Shown here piece after piece: positions 7,205-15,967 of a stretch of 64,000 nt of DNA; within the stretch, counting starts at the first letter, position 1, and the number at the start of each line of letters is the position of its first letter. Source of the stretch: a virus. The notes under the pieces were generated by a model that saw only the letters and a list, made by a program, of their open reading frames with translations, searched no databases and had not been told where the DNA came from. The stretch is taken from positions 1 through 64,000 of the IMG/VR virus record IMGVR_UViG_3300009183_000050; one strand, given 5' to 3'. Made by a program: the position numbers and the translations under genes.

Positions 7205-7612
7205 ATGGCATTCATGAATCAAGAAAAGAAAGCGGCCCTTGCGCCTGCTATCAAAGCGGCCCTTAAAAAGTATGGTATTAAGGGTTCTCTCGCGGTTGAC
7301 AACTATTCGACTCTGGTGTTGAACATCAAGTCTGGTCCCATCGATTTCATTCAGAACTATAATGAGACCGTTGGTCAGCAACCTGGTGGTTTTCGTAACG
7401 GTAGCCCTGCTGCCAGTTGCATTCAGGTGAACCGTTACTGGTTCCGTGAACACTTCAGTGACAAGGCTAAGAACTTCTTGACCGAGGTCATTGAAGCCAT
7501 GATGAAAGGCAACCACAACAACAGTGATGCCAGTATCGACTATTTTGATGTTGGTTGGTATATCGATGTTAACATTGGTAAGTGGTCGAAACCATATATT
7601 TTGGAGCGTTGA
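7205..7612 (+). CDS. LPD29-like phage/plasmid protein
   Basis: 135 residues starting MAFMNQEKKAALAPAIKAAL, then KGSLAVDNYSTLVLNIKSG and a C-terminal DASIDYFDVGWYIDVNIG. Proteins with the same order (QEKKA, helix, SLxVxNxSTLxLxIxSGP, final YFDVGWY) are widespread on phages and plasmids; I recall a similar unit in large polyvalent proteins (LPD29). Function unknown. A promoter and GAGGAG ribosome site drive it, so it is probably expressed well early in infection. Confidence 0.65.
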   Translation: MAFMNQEKKAALAPAIKAALKKYGIKGSLAVDNYSTLVLNIKSGPIDFIQNYNETVGQQPGGFRNGSPAASCIQVNRYWFREHFSDKAKNFLTEVIEAMMKGNHNNSDASIDYFDVGWYIDVNIGKWSKPYILER

Positions 7613-7613
7613 T

Positions 7614-7787
7614 ATGAGTAAGATGAAAGACTATCTGTTGGATATCCAGGAGTTGGTGATCAAAGCGATGTTGTCTGGTGCTAAGACCGACAATGATCTT
7701 TTTGCCTTCGTTCAGATGTATATTCCTGAAGCTACTGAAGGCACCGTCAAATATGCCACACAACAAATCTTCAAAGAAAACGCTTGA
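7614..7787 (+). CDS. Small hypothetical protein
   Basis: 57 residues from the ATG at 7614, just after the preceding stop, with a TTGGAG ribosome site. The sequence KMKDYLLDIQELVIKAM and TEGTVKYATQQIF is helical and looks like a small winged or three-helix fold. No known family. The promoter of the next gene overlaps its 3' end. Confidence 0.55.
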   Translation: MSKMKDYLLDIQELVIKAMLSGAKTDNDLFAFVQMYIPEATEGTVKYATQQIFKENA

Positions 7788-7811
7788 CTTCTCCACGGAA
7801 TGATATATAAT
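7784..7811 (+). promoter_or_regulatory. sigma70-like promoter
   Basis: TTGACT at 7784-7789 and TATAAT at 7806-7811 with a 16-base spacer. Expected start near 7818, which argues against the ATG at 7825 and for the ATG at 7852 as the real start of the gene. Confidence 0.8.
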
Positions 7812-7851
7812 ATCCGTATAGTCAATGATACACACACAAAGGAAAATACAC

Positions 7852-8322
7852 ATGCCAATAGTCAAATCTTCGAACGGCGTTCGCCCTGAGTTCCGCGCTC
7901 TTGCGGCCATCAAACTTAATACACCAGTGACTCCAACCGAGATCAATGATTTTGTTGGAACTGGTGATTATGCCGCAAAATATATCTCCTTTCTTCGCCG
8001 TGATGGTTTCGTGTTCGATACCACCAAGGTCGAGCGTAAGATTGTGTCTTACACCTTGATCGCCGAGCCAGCCAATGCTGAGTATTTCCGCAATTTGCAA
8101 CCTAAGAGCAAGCCTGTCAAACAGGCCGTTGCCAAGGTTGGTCGGGTTCAGCCTTCGAAGCCTGTGACTGGTAAAGTTATTCGGTCTAAGCCTGTGTTCG
8201 ATATTGGGCGAGATGAAGTGTCCAAGACTTTTGGTTCGACCGGTGAGATCGCCTCGGCTTACTCGATTGATTCCGATTGGGACTCGATGGATAATGTTGA
8301 TGTTCGTGACTTCTTGCGTTGA
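7852..8322 (+). CDS. Hypothetical protein with winged-helix-like N-terminus
   Basis: 156 residues; ATG at 7852 chosen because AAAGGAAAA lies just upstream. Residues 12-65 read as a possible winged helix: a helix with RALAAIKLN, then TPTEINDFVG, a recognition-like helix DYAAKYISFLRRDGF, and a beta wing KIVSYTLI. The second half is basic (KPVKQAVAKVGR). A DNA-binding regulator is plausible for an early gene with its own promoter, but this is a fold guess from pattern only. Confidence 0.55.
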   Translation: MPIVKSSNGVRPEFRALAAIKLNTPVTPTEINDFVGTGDYAAKYISFLRRDGFVFDTTKVERKIVSYTLIAEPANAEYFRNLQPKSKPVKQAVAKVGRVQPSKPVTGKVIRSKPVFDIGRDEVSKTFGSTGEIASAYSIDSDWDSMDNVDVRDFLR

Positions 8323-8327
8323 GGTGA

Positions 8328-8531
8328 ATGATGATCGAAAATGATGCTATTCAAGACTATATCCCCTATATCCCATATAGAGATAAGAAATTTACGGATC
8401 TTCAAGAGCAAAATAAAAAACTAATCACCATGAACGCCGCTTTGATACATAGTTTAGAAATAAGAATCCGTGAAATGATCGTATTAGTGGAGCAGATGAA
8501 GGTACAACTACAGGTGGAGTTAGGTGAATGA
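8328..8531 (+). CDS. Small coiled-coil hypothetical protein
   Basis: 67 residues. The first 20 are irregular with a repeated PYIPY motif; residues 20-65 form a likely single coiled coil (LQEQNKKLITMNAALIHSL, then IRIREMIVLVEQMKVQLQ). ATG codons at 8328 and 8331 follow GAGGTG. It overlaps the next gene by four bases. No known family. Confidence 0.5.
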   Translation: MMIENDAIQDYIPYIPYRDKKFTDLQEQNKKLITMNAALIHSLEIRIREMIVLVEQMKVQLQVELGE

Positions 8532-10745: not shown

Positions 10746-10785
10746 CAAAAGAAGGTGCACCGAAAGGTCGCCTTCTTTTGCTTTT
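10746..10785 (+). terminator. Rho-independent terminator
   Basis: CAAAAGAAGG (10746-10755) pairs perfectly with CCTTCTTTTG (10771-10780); the loop contains an inner ACC-GAAA-GGT stem; CTTTT follows. It separates the FmdB-like gene from phoH. Confidence 0.75.
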
Positions 10786-13017: not shown

Positions 13018-13987
13018 TACATGGTCACCACATATCAACGGTGTGGTGACCACTCTCAAGAAGATAGAAGAGTATGCAAAGGGTGAGGTTGAATTTGTTA
13101 CACCACACTCATTCAAAACACACGCAAACCCATTCTATCCAGAACTCCGACTCGCCTTTCCCAATCAAAAAGAGATTCAAACAGTCGTCGATTCTATTCA
13201 ACCTGAGTTTATTCACATTGCAACCGAAGGTCCTATCGGTTATGCAATGCGTAAGTGGTGTGTGAGAAAAAAAGTTAAGTTTACTACTAGCTATCACACA
13301 AAGTTTCCTGAATACTTCAAAGCATACTTTAACATACCCACATGTATCACCTATCCATATTTCAAATGGTTTCATAATGCAGGTAAAGGTATATTTGTTG
13401 CAACCGAGTCGCTACGTCTTGACCTTGAGAAGAAAGGTTTCAAGAACTGCATGGCTTGGGCAAGAGGTGTTGATACGGAATTGTTTTGGGATTATGATAA
13501 CCAACCAAAAGCAGATCCTAAATTTGCGTTGTTTGTTGGTCGAGTATCTAAAGAGAAGAACATCGAGGCGTTTCTCAATCTCAAGTATAATGGTGTGAAG
13601 GTCGTTGTTGGTGATGGACCGCAACTCAAAGAACTCAAGAAAAAGTATCCTGATGTTCAATTCAAAGGTTCGATGACGGGTGAGTTTCTTGCATGGTATT
13701 ACCAGAATGCTGAAGTGTTTGTTTTCCCTAGCAAGTCAGATACCTTTGGTTTGGTTATGCTAGAAGCACTGGCCTGTGGAACACCTGTAGCCGCATATAA
13801 CGTAACGGGACCAAAAGATGTGATCATTCCATCTGTTGGCTGTGTTGATGATGACTTGCAAAAAGCACTTGACACAGCCGTCCATTGTGATAGAATGGTC
13901 TGTAGAAATTATGCGGAACGATTCAGTTGGAAGAAAGTGGTTGATATCTTTATCAAGAAAGTGAAATATGAAAACGTTCCGTCATAA
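12992..13987 (+). CDS. GT4-family glycosyltransferase (Agt/mannosyltransferase-like)
   Basis: 331 residues from the ATG at 12992, which has GGAGA just upstream; it overlaps the phosphoesterase gene by 26 bases. The N-terminal Rossmann half carries ILIVSDTWSPHINGVVTTL (acceptor side). The C-terminal donor half has FVGRVSKEKNIEAFL and the EX7E-type segment FPSKSDTFGLVMLEALACG, typical of retaining GT4 enzymes such as GDP-mannose-dependent mannosyltransferases and the Agrobacterium Agt glycolipid synthase. With the adjacent phosphoesterase it could convert diacylglycerol to a glycolipid; glycosylation of a phage part or host surface is the alternative. Confidence 0.85.
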   Translation: MSKILIVSDTWSPHINGVVTTLKKIEEYAKGEVEFVTPHSFKTHANPFYPELRLAFPNQKEIQTVVDSIQPEFIHIATEGPIGYAMRKWCVRKKVKFTTSYHTKFPEYFKAYFNIPTCITYPYFKWFHNAGKGIFVATESLRLDLEKKGFKNCMAWARGVDTELFWDYDNQPKADPKFALFVGRVSKEKNIEAFLNLKYNGVKVVVGDGPQLKELKKKYPDVQFKGSMTGEFLAWYYQNAEVFVFPSKSDTFGLVMLEALACGTPVAAYNVTGPKDVIIPSVGCVDDDLQKALDTAVHCDRMVCRNYAERFSWKKVVDIFIKKVKYENVPS

Positions 13988-14654
13988 GACAAACTTGGTC
14001 AAACTAGAACCGCTGCCAGACGAGATCATTGATGGTAAGCGGTTCTACACTGCACCAAGCGGTAACAAGCTACCCTCCGTCACCACCGTGCTAGGTCACT
14101 TCAAGAAGCAAAAACTTGTCGAGTGGCAGGACAAGGTCGGCTTAGAAGAAGCTGAACGTATCAAGACTCGTGCAAGCCTTCGTGGTACCAAATTTCATAA
14201 CATGATGGAAAAGTATCTGCTAAACGAAAGCAAGCGTATCATCTTTGAAGATGTTATGCCTGATATGAAACAGGCCTTCAATGATGCTAGACCATATATT
14301 GACAAGATCGACGAGATACATTATATTGAATCTCCATTGTATTCGGAGGCTCTCGGATTGGCTGGTCGAACCGATGTGATTGCCGAGTATGATGGTGTGC
14401 CTTCAATCATCGACTTCAAGACCTCGTTGAGGATTAAGAAAGAATCGTGGATCGAAAACTACTTTGAACAGGGAACAGCCTACTCACTAATGTATGAAGA
14501 ACTAACTGGTATCAAGATCGAACAGATTGTGATTATCATATCGGTTGATCATGAGGATAAACCTCAAGAGTTTATCAAGAACCGAAATGACTATGTTGAC
14601 TCACTGATGGATAAAATCGAAGCCTATAAAAAGGAACATTCTAATGTATATTGA
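13968..14654 (+). CDS. PD-(D/E)XK nuclease, Cas4/MGME1-like
   Basis: 228 residues. Nuclease motifs: an early SVTTVLGHF segment, RGTKFHNMMEKYL (conserved His region), LGLAGRTDVIAEYDGV with the first Asp, and SIIDFKTS with the D-x-K catalytic end. This is the layout of RecB-family exonucleases such as mitochondrial MGME1 that degrade single-stranded or flapped DNA. In a phage it probably serves recombination, repair or host DNA turnover. Overlaps genes on both sides by 20 and 11 bases. Confidence 0.82.
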   Translation: MKTFRHKTNLVKLEPLPDEIIDGKRFYTAPSGNKLPSVTTVLGHFKKQKLVEWQDKVGLEEAERIKTRASLRGTKFHNMMEKYLLNESKRIIFEDVMPDMKQAFNDARPYIDKIDEIHYIESPLYSEALGLAGRTDVIAEYDGVPSIIDFKTSLRIKKESWIENYFEQGTAYSLMYEELTGIKIEQIVIIISVDHEDKPQEFIKNRNDYVDSLMDKIEAYKKEHSNVY

Positions 14655-14842: not shown

Positions 14843-15022
14843 ATGAATATGACTTGGAAATTGTTCAGTGGTTTTGTAATCGGGTTTCTGTTTCTTCCAC
14901 TGATAGTGATGCTTGACAAATATGTAGGACCTGGAGCAGGATCCATCGCTATTGCTATGCTTGGAATGGGTATCTGCGTAGCGGCCTGTGTTTGGTTGAT
15001 TGAAAAGATGAGTAAACTCTGA
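14843..15022 (+). CDS. Tiny two-segment membrane protein (59 aa)
   Basis: A 59-residue frame from ATG 14843: hydrophobic segment 1 at about residues 7-24 (LFSGFVIGFLFLPLIVML), a DKYVGPGAG turn, hydrophobic segment 2 at about 34-53, then EKMSKL. A class II holin-like hairpin is a possibility, but phage genomes hold many unrelated tiny membrane proteins and no endolysin is adjacent. Its TGA overlaps the region of the tmRNA promoter. Confidence 0.55.
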   Translation: MNMTWKLFSGFVIGFLFLPLIVMLDKYVGPGAGSIAIAMLGMGICVAACVWLIEKMSKL

Positions 15023-15024
15023 GG

Positions 15025-15055
15025 TTGCCAACAGAGGCCACTTGTGATATAAATA
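15025..15055 (+). promoter_or_regulatory. Promoter of the tmRNA gene
   Basis: TTGCCA at 15025-15030, 17-base spacer, TATAAA at 15048-15053. The -10 is at the same time a perfect T4-type late octamer, TATAAATA (15048-15055), so the RNA locus may be read both by host-type and by late polymerase. Expected start near 15060. Confidence 0.65.
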
Positions 15056-15127
15056 TAGATGCTAAGGTTGTTGATAATGACATAATATACGGAAGAGACC
15101 TCGGGGCAGTACCGAGCGGGTCCACCA

Positions 15128-15208
15128 TAGATACATAGAAGGTTGTTGACCTTTTAAGGCAGTTAGCTAATGCCACCTGAGTAGAAGTCTCGGCTATGTA
15201 TCTTTGAT
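15128..15208 (+). other. Spacer between tmRNA pieces
   Basis: Joins the CCA end of the acceptor piece to the 5' end of the coding piece in the precursor. AGATACATAG (15129-15138) and CTATGTATCT (15194-15203) form a perfect 10-bp stem. Inside it are two smaller hairpins, AAGGT/ACCTT and GGCA/TGCC. In alphaproteobacterial tmRNA such a spacer is removed during maturation. Confidence 0.75.
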
Positions 15209-15269
15209 GGGCCCGAAATAGAATCGATCTACGAGTAAAAGTCAGAGTAGACCAAGGCAAAACATAAAT

Positions 15270-15314
15270 GCAGCAAACGATAACTTTGCATTTGAGACAC
15301 GCCTAGCGGCTTAA
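15270..15314 (+). other. tmRNA proteolysis-tag reading frame
   Basis: GCA at 15270 is the likely resume codon; the frame gives AANDNFAFETRLAA, then TAA. AANDN at the start and LAA at the end are the hallmarks of alphaproteobacterial SsrA tags; the central FAFETR segment is phage-specific as far as I can tell. If resume is at 15273 the tag is one alanine shorter. Confidence 0.85.
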
Positions 15315-15362
15315 TCTCATTGGGTATGGGTTCCACCTCGAAACAGAACGGGCCCACTTTAT

Positions 15363-15433
15363 GTCGCTGTCGGTGTTGATGGGAAACACAGATCGATAAG
15401 ACTAGGACTTCCGTTCGAATCGGAACAGCGGCG
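15363..15433 (+). other. tRNA-like element lacking a credible anticodon arm
   Basis: GTCGCTG (15363-15369) pairs over seven bp with CAGCGGC (15426-15432; one G-U). The T arm is canonical: TTCCG, loop TTCGAAT, CGGAA. A D-like hairpin GTGTT/AACAC (15373-15377 with 15385-15389) has a GG-containing loop. The 17-19 bases left between D and T arms form no acceptable anticodon stem and give no loop with U33 and a paired stem. No CCA is encoded. It may be a decayed tRNA, or a structured end or processing signal for the tmRNA just upstream. Confidence 0.45.
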
Positions 15434-15461: not shown

Positions 15462-15695
15462 ATGTCAAAAACACCATTCGAGATTCGTTTAGAACTCTTG
15501 AACCTCGCTAAAGATATCCTCACAGAAAAAGCATTCAATGAACGTAACCGTCTTGAACAAGATTGGTTTGCGAAGCGTGAAATTTGCACGAAAAACAATG
15601 ATTCTGTGCCTGCTTTTCCAAAGACGCCCACTATTGATGAGGATGAAATTGCACAACTTGCTAAGAAGCTGAACGACTTTGTATCCAACGGATAA
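15462..15695 (+). CDS. Conserved small T4-type phage protein
   Basis: 77 residues starting MSKTPFEIRLELLNLAKDIL, an N-terminus conserved in a small protein of marine and other T4-like phages next to replication and late-transcription genes. Helical throughout; the C-terminus has IDEDEIAQLAKKLNDFV. The function is unknown. A CAGGAG ribosome site precedes it. Confidence 0.7.
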   Translation: MSKTPFEIRLELLNLAKDILTEKAFNERNRLEQDWFAKREICTKNNDSVPAFPKTPTIDEDEIAQLAKKLNDFVSNG

Positions 15696-15702
15696 GGAGA
15701 TT

Positions 15703-15728
15703 GGGAGAGGTGAAAGCCTCTCCCTTTT
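15703..15728 (+). terminator. Terminator-like hairpin in the gp33 leader
   Basis: GGGAGAGG (15703-15710) pairs with CCTCTCCC (15717-15724) around the loop TGAAAG, followed by TTTT. It lies between a strong AAGGAG element (15694-15699) and the ATG at 15734, so it may attenuate transcription or, when folded, bring the ribosome site next to the start. Confidence 0.6.
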
Positions 15729-15733
15729 ACATC

Positions 15734-15967
15734 ATGGCAAATAAAGAAGAAATCACCAACTTTTCATTAGAGATCGAAGAACTTGTATGGGAAAAAGATA
15801 TTTCATATATGGAAGCTATCGTCTTGCACTGCGAACAAACAGGCCTTGAAATTGAACTAGCCGCCAAACTAATCTCTGGTGCGCTCAAGTCTAAGATCAA
15901 GCTTGAGGCTGAAGAACTGAACTTCTTACCTAAGTCTAATACTGCGAAACTTTCTATCTGGGGTTAA
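15734..15967 (+). CDS. 33: gp33-like late-promoter transcription accessory protein
   Basis: 77 residues from the ATG at 15734. The core DISYMEAIVLHCEQTGLEIE, followed by LAAKLISGALKSKIKLEAEE and the end LNFLPKSNTAKLSIW, is characteristic of the gp33 late-transcription coactivators of T4-like phages. In T4, gp33 bridges RNA polymerase and the sliding clamp at TATAAATA promoters. An in-frame GTG at 15710 with better spaced AAGGAG would add eight residues translated from the hairpin; both starts remain possible. Confidence 0.8.
   Translation: MANKEEITNFSLEIEELVWEKDISYMEAIVLHCEQTGLEIELAAKLISGALKSKIKLEAEELNFLPKSNTAKLSIWG

Follow-up and report, generated by a model that had tools for sequence, protein, structure and literature searches.

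A circularly permuted two-piece tmRNA gene of alphaproteobacterial type in a T4-like phage, and its phage relatives with and without pseudoknot 1

The stretch of DNA analyzed here, called the window, comprises positions 1 to 64,000 of IMG/VR virus record IMGVR_UViG_3300009183_000050, which is T4-like and 140,865 bp long. The window carries a complete, circularly permuted, two-piece transfer-messenger RNA (tmRNA) gene of the alphaproteobacterial type, in which the acceptor piece (15066-15127) stands ahead of the coding piece, which begins at 15209. In an Rfam covariance search, the alpha_tmRNA model RF01849 matched 15021-15358 with 91.9 bits (E value 1.1e-23; gathering score 50), and the tmRNA_permuted model RF04321 matched 15066-15314 with 79.5 bits (cut-off 47). 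The initial annotation had proposed a permuted two-piece tmRNA in a T4-like phage from the letters alone and had suggested the RF01849 search, and both matches bear out the identity; the T arm, the acceptor strand with ACCA, the 10-bp spacer stem, and the complete GGGCCCG pairing are all where it had put them. It did not mention the loss of pseudoknot 1 (PK1), the phage-type pseudoknot 2 (PK2), a candidate promoter, or a degenerate tRNA downstream. ARAGORN, run on the window, reported no tmRNA at this locus, so standard annotation would overlook the gene. Its parts are as follows, with the basis of each assignment in parentheses:

15025-15055, plus strand: candidate sigma70-like promoter, TTGCCA, 17 nt, TATAAATA (sequence)
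15066-15127, plus strand: acceptor (3') piece with the H2 5' strand, T arm, acceptor strand, and ACCA; 5' end approximate (RF04321 and RF01849 alignments, sequence)
15100-15116, plus strand: T arm, CTCGG GGCAGTA CCGAG (sequence)
15117-15123, plus strand: acceptor strand, CGGGTCC (sequence)
15124-15127, plus strand: encoded ACCA (sequence)
15128-15208, plus strand: spacer between the pieces, predicted to be removed on maturation (sequence, fold)
15209-15269, plus strand: 5' end of the coding piece, with GGGCCCG, the tRNA-like 5' part, the H2 3' strand, and an A-rich linker without PK1 (acceptor pairing, sequence)
15270-15314, plus strand: tag frame GCA...TAA, AANDNFAFETRLAA, stop TAA at 15312-15314 (sequence)
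15320-15359, plus strand: phage-type PK2, with stem S2 (GGGT, 15322-15325, with ACCT), stem S1 (TGGGTTC with GGGCCCA), and A-rich loop GAAACAGAA (H-type topology, phage identity)

The GGGCCCG at 15209-15215 pairs with the acceptor strand at seven of seven positions, a G3.U70 wobble included, and A73 is present. The G3.U70 wobble and A73 are alanine specificity elements. In all 80 phage tmRNAs, G3 faces U70, as read by an acceptor parser that demanded G at position 3 and made no demand on position 70. The spacer is closed by a perfect 10-bp stem (15129-15138 with 15194-15203) and folds at -28.7 kcal/mol (z score of -2.67).

Directly before the first GCA of the tag frame stands UAAAU; its counterpart before the resume codon of Escherichia coli is UAGUC. 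With UAAAU in this place, the resume codon is likely at 15270, which suggests that both alanines belong to the encoded tag. LAA ends were found in 103 of 107 phage tags (the parsing required alanine at the tag end), while the centers vary, giving 67 distinct tags. The initial annotation had raised the possibility that a tag with its own central sequence redirects proteolysis; the free center and the kept LAA end instead point to ordinary degradation as the probable role. Conserved U70 opposite G3, together with LAA ends on varied centers, is the pattern expected from selection on alanine charging and proteolysis.

A match of at least 10 of 12 bases to TTGACA-16/18-TATAAT lies upstream of 38 of the 80 phage tmRNAs (about 3.5 expected from shuffles). 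The stock promoter scan omits the candidate in the window because it requires the -10 box to end in T. Reading TATAAATA at 15048 as a T4 late promoter is disfavored rather than rejected: the sigma70-like layout fits the relatives better, and ATAAATA, which in the relatives clusters 68-80 nt ahead of the acceptor end, shows no enrichment in the window (18 occurrences, 18.6 expected).

Downstream of the tag, PK2 of the window has a 7-bp S1 and a 4-bp S2 around GAAACAGAA. The same H-type topology, in which both stems flank an A-rich loop, was found in 105 of 107 phage sequences (3% of shuffles) and in 70 of 74 bacterial sequences (5% of shuffles). In a set not selected by PK2, the loop is GAAACAGAA in 22/22 phage tmRNAs but GCAACAGAA in 68/68 bacterial tmRNAs with the motif found; the phage loci were gathered partly by PK2 sequence, which biases the counts of PK2 types but affects neither this comparison nor the tree columns described below. 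Judged by its sequence, the phage PK2 has retained the fold of its bacterial counterpart and is phage-specific in its letters. DSS3P8, Cp1R7A-A1, and RcSimone-Hastad, three phages that belong to other groups, have the bacterial loop C. The pseudoknot was preferred over a simple stem-loop, which the minimum free energy fold gives for PK2, as S1 and S2 are both kept through sequence changes across types.

Over the final 40 bases of the coding piece, the window matches the Sinorhizobium jumbo phage Phosso at 40 of 40 positions. A 26-mer of PK2 is present in 21 viral contigs and has no match among 84,980 prokaryote genomes, and a looser PK2 pattern matches at least 119 viral stretches. An origin of the window gene in a host genome was rejected, as the 26-mer has no genome match and the 21 genome matches of a similar 19-mer are not tmRNAs. 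The PK2 signature can serve as a finder for unannotated phage tmRNAs such as that of Phosso (PV764938.1; L002, 2350-3039), which ARAGORN does not detect and which combines a bacterial-like PK1 with a phage-type PK2. Permuted tmRNA genes are also unannotated in the isolate phages DSS3P8, Cp1R7A-A1, and RcSimone-Hastad (L316, L317, and L318). Two bacterial tmRNAs (L281 and L312) have a near-phage-type PK2 (CCACCTAGCAACAGAACGG) with a different loop C and are possible donor relatives. L081 has, near 10749 on its reverse strand, another phage-type PK2 that stands free, directly 3' of the small protein gene downstream of the tmRNA, and in L117 and L170, a strong sigma70-like promoter leads straight into a tag with PK2, and both the acceptor piece and the tRNA-like 5' part are missing. 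These three cases are too few to take PK2 as a free-standing functional element.

Measured up to the GCA at 15273, the window's coding piece has a 5' part of 64 nt. In 71 bacterial tmRNAs this part is at least 80 nt, and none of the 71 is as short as that of the window; phage 5' parts fall into two groups of 56-71 nt and 76-96 nt. We found neither a pseudoknot nor a hairpin in the linker from H2 to the resume codon of the window, nor in most of the short phage 5' parts, a few of which (e.g., L090, L092, and L004) allow weak pairing in this region. Altogether, PK1 is absent from 17 phage tmRNAs, the window and 16 others, versus 0/71 bacterial ones, and in these 17 an A-rich linker runs from the end of H2 to the resume codon. 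In a further phage group, with tags such as ANDNDVAFALAA, a TGGCA-AAG-TGCCA hairpin dominates the PK1 region.

PK1 is typical of two-piece tmRNAs, between H2 and the resume codon, and is not obligate; plastid tmRNAs have fewer pseudoknots or none (PMC3985003). The tmRNA of E. coli loses no activity when its PK1 is replaced (PMC2481249), and the absence of PK1 therefore need not disable the RNA. By analogy, the PK1-less phage tmRNAs look like a natural counterpart of these replacements. The tmRNA database paper has 79 phage sequences and, in the passages concerned, no remark on PK1 (PMC11915505). The locus allows a clean comparison of tmRNAs that have similar promoters and LAA ends but carry PK1, a hairpin in its place, or neither, so what PK1 does and why phages carry a tmRNA would be directly testable.

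The T4-like genes around the tmRNA include those for PhoH, an exonuclease, gp33, gp59, gp32, and the baseplate hub; gp32 is nearest to those of cyanophage-type myoviruses (about 50% identity), and the rest of the genome has 17 tRNA genes. The following neighbors bear on the comparisons:

13968-14654, plus strand: exonuclease, upstream synteny marker (phrog_298, 5.8e-69)
15363-15432, plus strand: degenerate tRNA, adjoining the tmRNA but separate from it (acceptor GTCGCTG/CAGCGGC, 7 bp; T arm TTCCG-TTCGAAT-CGGAA)
15701-15967, plus strand: gp33 late-transcription coactivator, downstream synteny marker (PF16805, 1.5e-21)

A 77-amino-acid open reading frame (ORF) at 15462-15695 failed as a candidate for gp33, which is the next ORF. 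The T-arm 21-mer of the degenerate tRNA is identical to that of intact tRNA-Met genes of other phages, its anticodon stem is missing, and the tRNA is absent from the corresponding place in L004 and L007.

A tmRNA was found in 32 of the 43 viral records holding the neighboring exonuclease gene, so its presence in the window is not due to chance. Among the 11 records without one, most contigs stop shortly past the exonuclease; in L006 (1.4 kb) and L038 (0.9 kb), other genes follow in its place. Two-piece tmRNAs have been published in T4-like pelagimyophages and methylophages, with 53 unique phage ones counted, of which 50 were marine or aquatic (Buchholz et al. 2022, PMC9004378). The impression that the permuted form is rare in T4-like phages is contradicted by that paper and by the 32/43 relatives; the two-piece phage tmRNA is an already known kind and is common at this locus. 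Our search of the literature on phage-encoded tmRNA, and on tmRNA with homing endonucleases, found nothing closer than PMC9004378, and it found no functional test of phage two-piece tmRNAs.

We built an unrooted tree from 113 columns covering the tRNA-like domain and the conserved ends of the tag, without PK1 and PK2. A branch with 99/94 support sets 82 of 83 phage tmRNAs, including those of Phosso and of Methylophilales phage EXVC044M (Melnitz), apart from the 63 bacterial ones, a split to be read with the few columns, the small bacterial sample, and the different base compositions of the two groups in mind. The only phage tmRNA placed with bacteria is that of Mesorhizobium phage Cp1R7A-A1. 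This suggests a single origin of the phage tmRNAs. A broader reading, which we put forward tentatively and believe a little less than we doubt, is that an old two-piece lineage of the phages' own, apart from the sampled alphaproteobacterial tmRNAs, has been traded between unrelated phages with its phage-specific PK2, and that part of it works without PK1. If true, such PK1-free natural tmRNAs would reveal how little pseudoknot scaffold trans-translation requires. Two bacterial genomes (L255, G345:C1:824236-824610; L257, G258:C110:74216-74577) have a second alpha tmRNA that may lie on a mobile element and scores much lower (163-166 bits, as against 307-309 for the other).

The window gene probably encodes a functional two-piece tmRNA that would do ordinary trans-translation with host factors and ease the load of stalled ribosomes in infection. 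We favor this because of the two Rfam models, U70 in 80/80, LAA ends in 103/107, PK2 in 105/107, the synteny with Melnitz, the promoter enrichment, and the 99/94 branch. Transcription would start from the gene's own sigma70-like candidate promoter, host tRNA-processing enzymes (RNases) would cut the precursor, and the two pieces would pair. Host alanyl-tRNA synthetase (AlaRS) would charge the acceptor with alanine, and host SmpB would bring the charged tmRNA to stalled ribosomes. SmpB (PF01668) had no match in the virus's own 140.9-kb record, which is possibly incomplete, or in the records of 15 relatives, some of them fragments, and host SmpB would therefore be required. During a T4-like infection, many mRNAs are cut, with the stop codon lost and ribosomes stalled; an extra tmRNA supply would free these ribosomes for phage translation, and the LAA-ending tag would direct the truncated proteins to ClpXP-type proteolysis. 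The gene is probably part of a phage-borne lineage passed among phages, of which the branch of the window has lost PK1, so that a short A-rich single strand right after H2 leads to the resume codon.

Several points speak against a working tmRNA. H2 in the window is short and irregular, and the RF01849 score of 91.9 is far under most bacterial scores (160-318). We know of no assay of a natural two-piece tmRNA without PK1.

One alternative is that the phage RNA acts as a decoy that competes for SmpB and AlaRS with the tmRNA of the host and weakens host trans-translation. PK1 loss could impair the template step and would fit such a role, but a decoy requires neither the complete tag with its LAA end nor PK2, both of which are kept almost throughout, and we consider it improbable. 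To the same degree we doubt that the gene persists mainly as a target of recombination or homing, with a product of little use to the phage. L118 (105-1100) and L161 (near 7281-8529) each have an intact tmRNA whose tag differs, and behind it first an ORF on the opposite strand and then the remnant of a second tmRNA, consisting of a tag end and a phage-type PK2; the ORF of L118 has NUMOD3, a homing-endonuclease motif, and that of L161 has repeat motifs resembling those of homing endonucleases. The mixture of bacterial-looking PK1 and phage-type PK2 in Phosso would also agree with a recombination target. However, no endonuclease gene adjoins the window tmRNA, the functional residues and the promoter are conserved, and fragments are few among more than 100 loci. 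As for L118 and L161 themselves, their layout is as though an endonuclease element had entered the tmRNA gene, bringing a new 3' end.

Least probable is a decaying relic with PK1 loss as part of the decay, which would suit the lower covariance score, the missing PK1, the adjoining degenerate tRNA, and the silence of ARAGORN, but the acceptor pairing (7/7, including G3.U70), the T stem, the encoded CCA, the tag frame, and PK2 are all intact, and the lack of PK1 is a stable state, since it recurs in 17 phage tmRNAs whose tags are intact. Possible as these three readings are, a functional tmRNA is the better explanation for the conservation of the tag and PK2.

Compared with known systems, the mycobacteriophage one-piece and tag-less tmRNAs (e.g., that of DS6A) are phage-encoded as well, whereas the window gene is of the permuted form, with a tag frame. 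Phosso shares the 40 identical bases over the PK2 end and differs in being a 469-kb phage of another group, with a 410-nt tmRNA spacer and a bacterial-like PK1 retained. Alphaproteobacterial chromosomal tmRNAs (RF01849) share the permuted order, the T loop type, the ANDN tag start, the LAA end, and an H-type PK2; the window differs in having no PK1, a PK2 loop of GAAACAGAA instead of GCAACAGAA, and a short segment from tag to PK2. The closest system is the annotated ssrA of Melnitz. It differs in its PK1-like fold and 82-nt 5' part, as opposed to 64 nt without PK1, and in its PK2 sequence and tag; a glutamine riboswitch has been predicted with it (PMC9004378), unlike in the window, where Rfam found none. 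Like the window gene, the Melnitz ssrA and related pelagimyophage tmRNAs (PMC9004378) are of the two-piece permuted alphaproteobacterial type in T4-like phages. Melnitz also has an A in the PK2 loop and a promoter of the same layout (TTGACA-17-TATAAATA). Its gene order is likewise exonuclease-tmRNA-gp33-gp59, with a PDDEXK nuclease upstream of ssrA and, 3' of it, a gene to which gp33 of the window is 43% identical.
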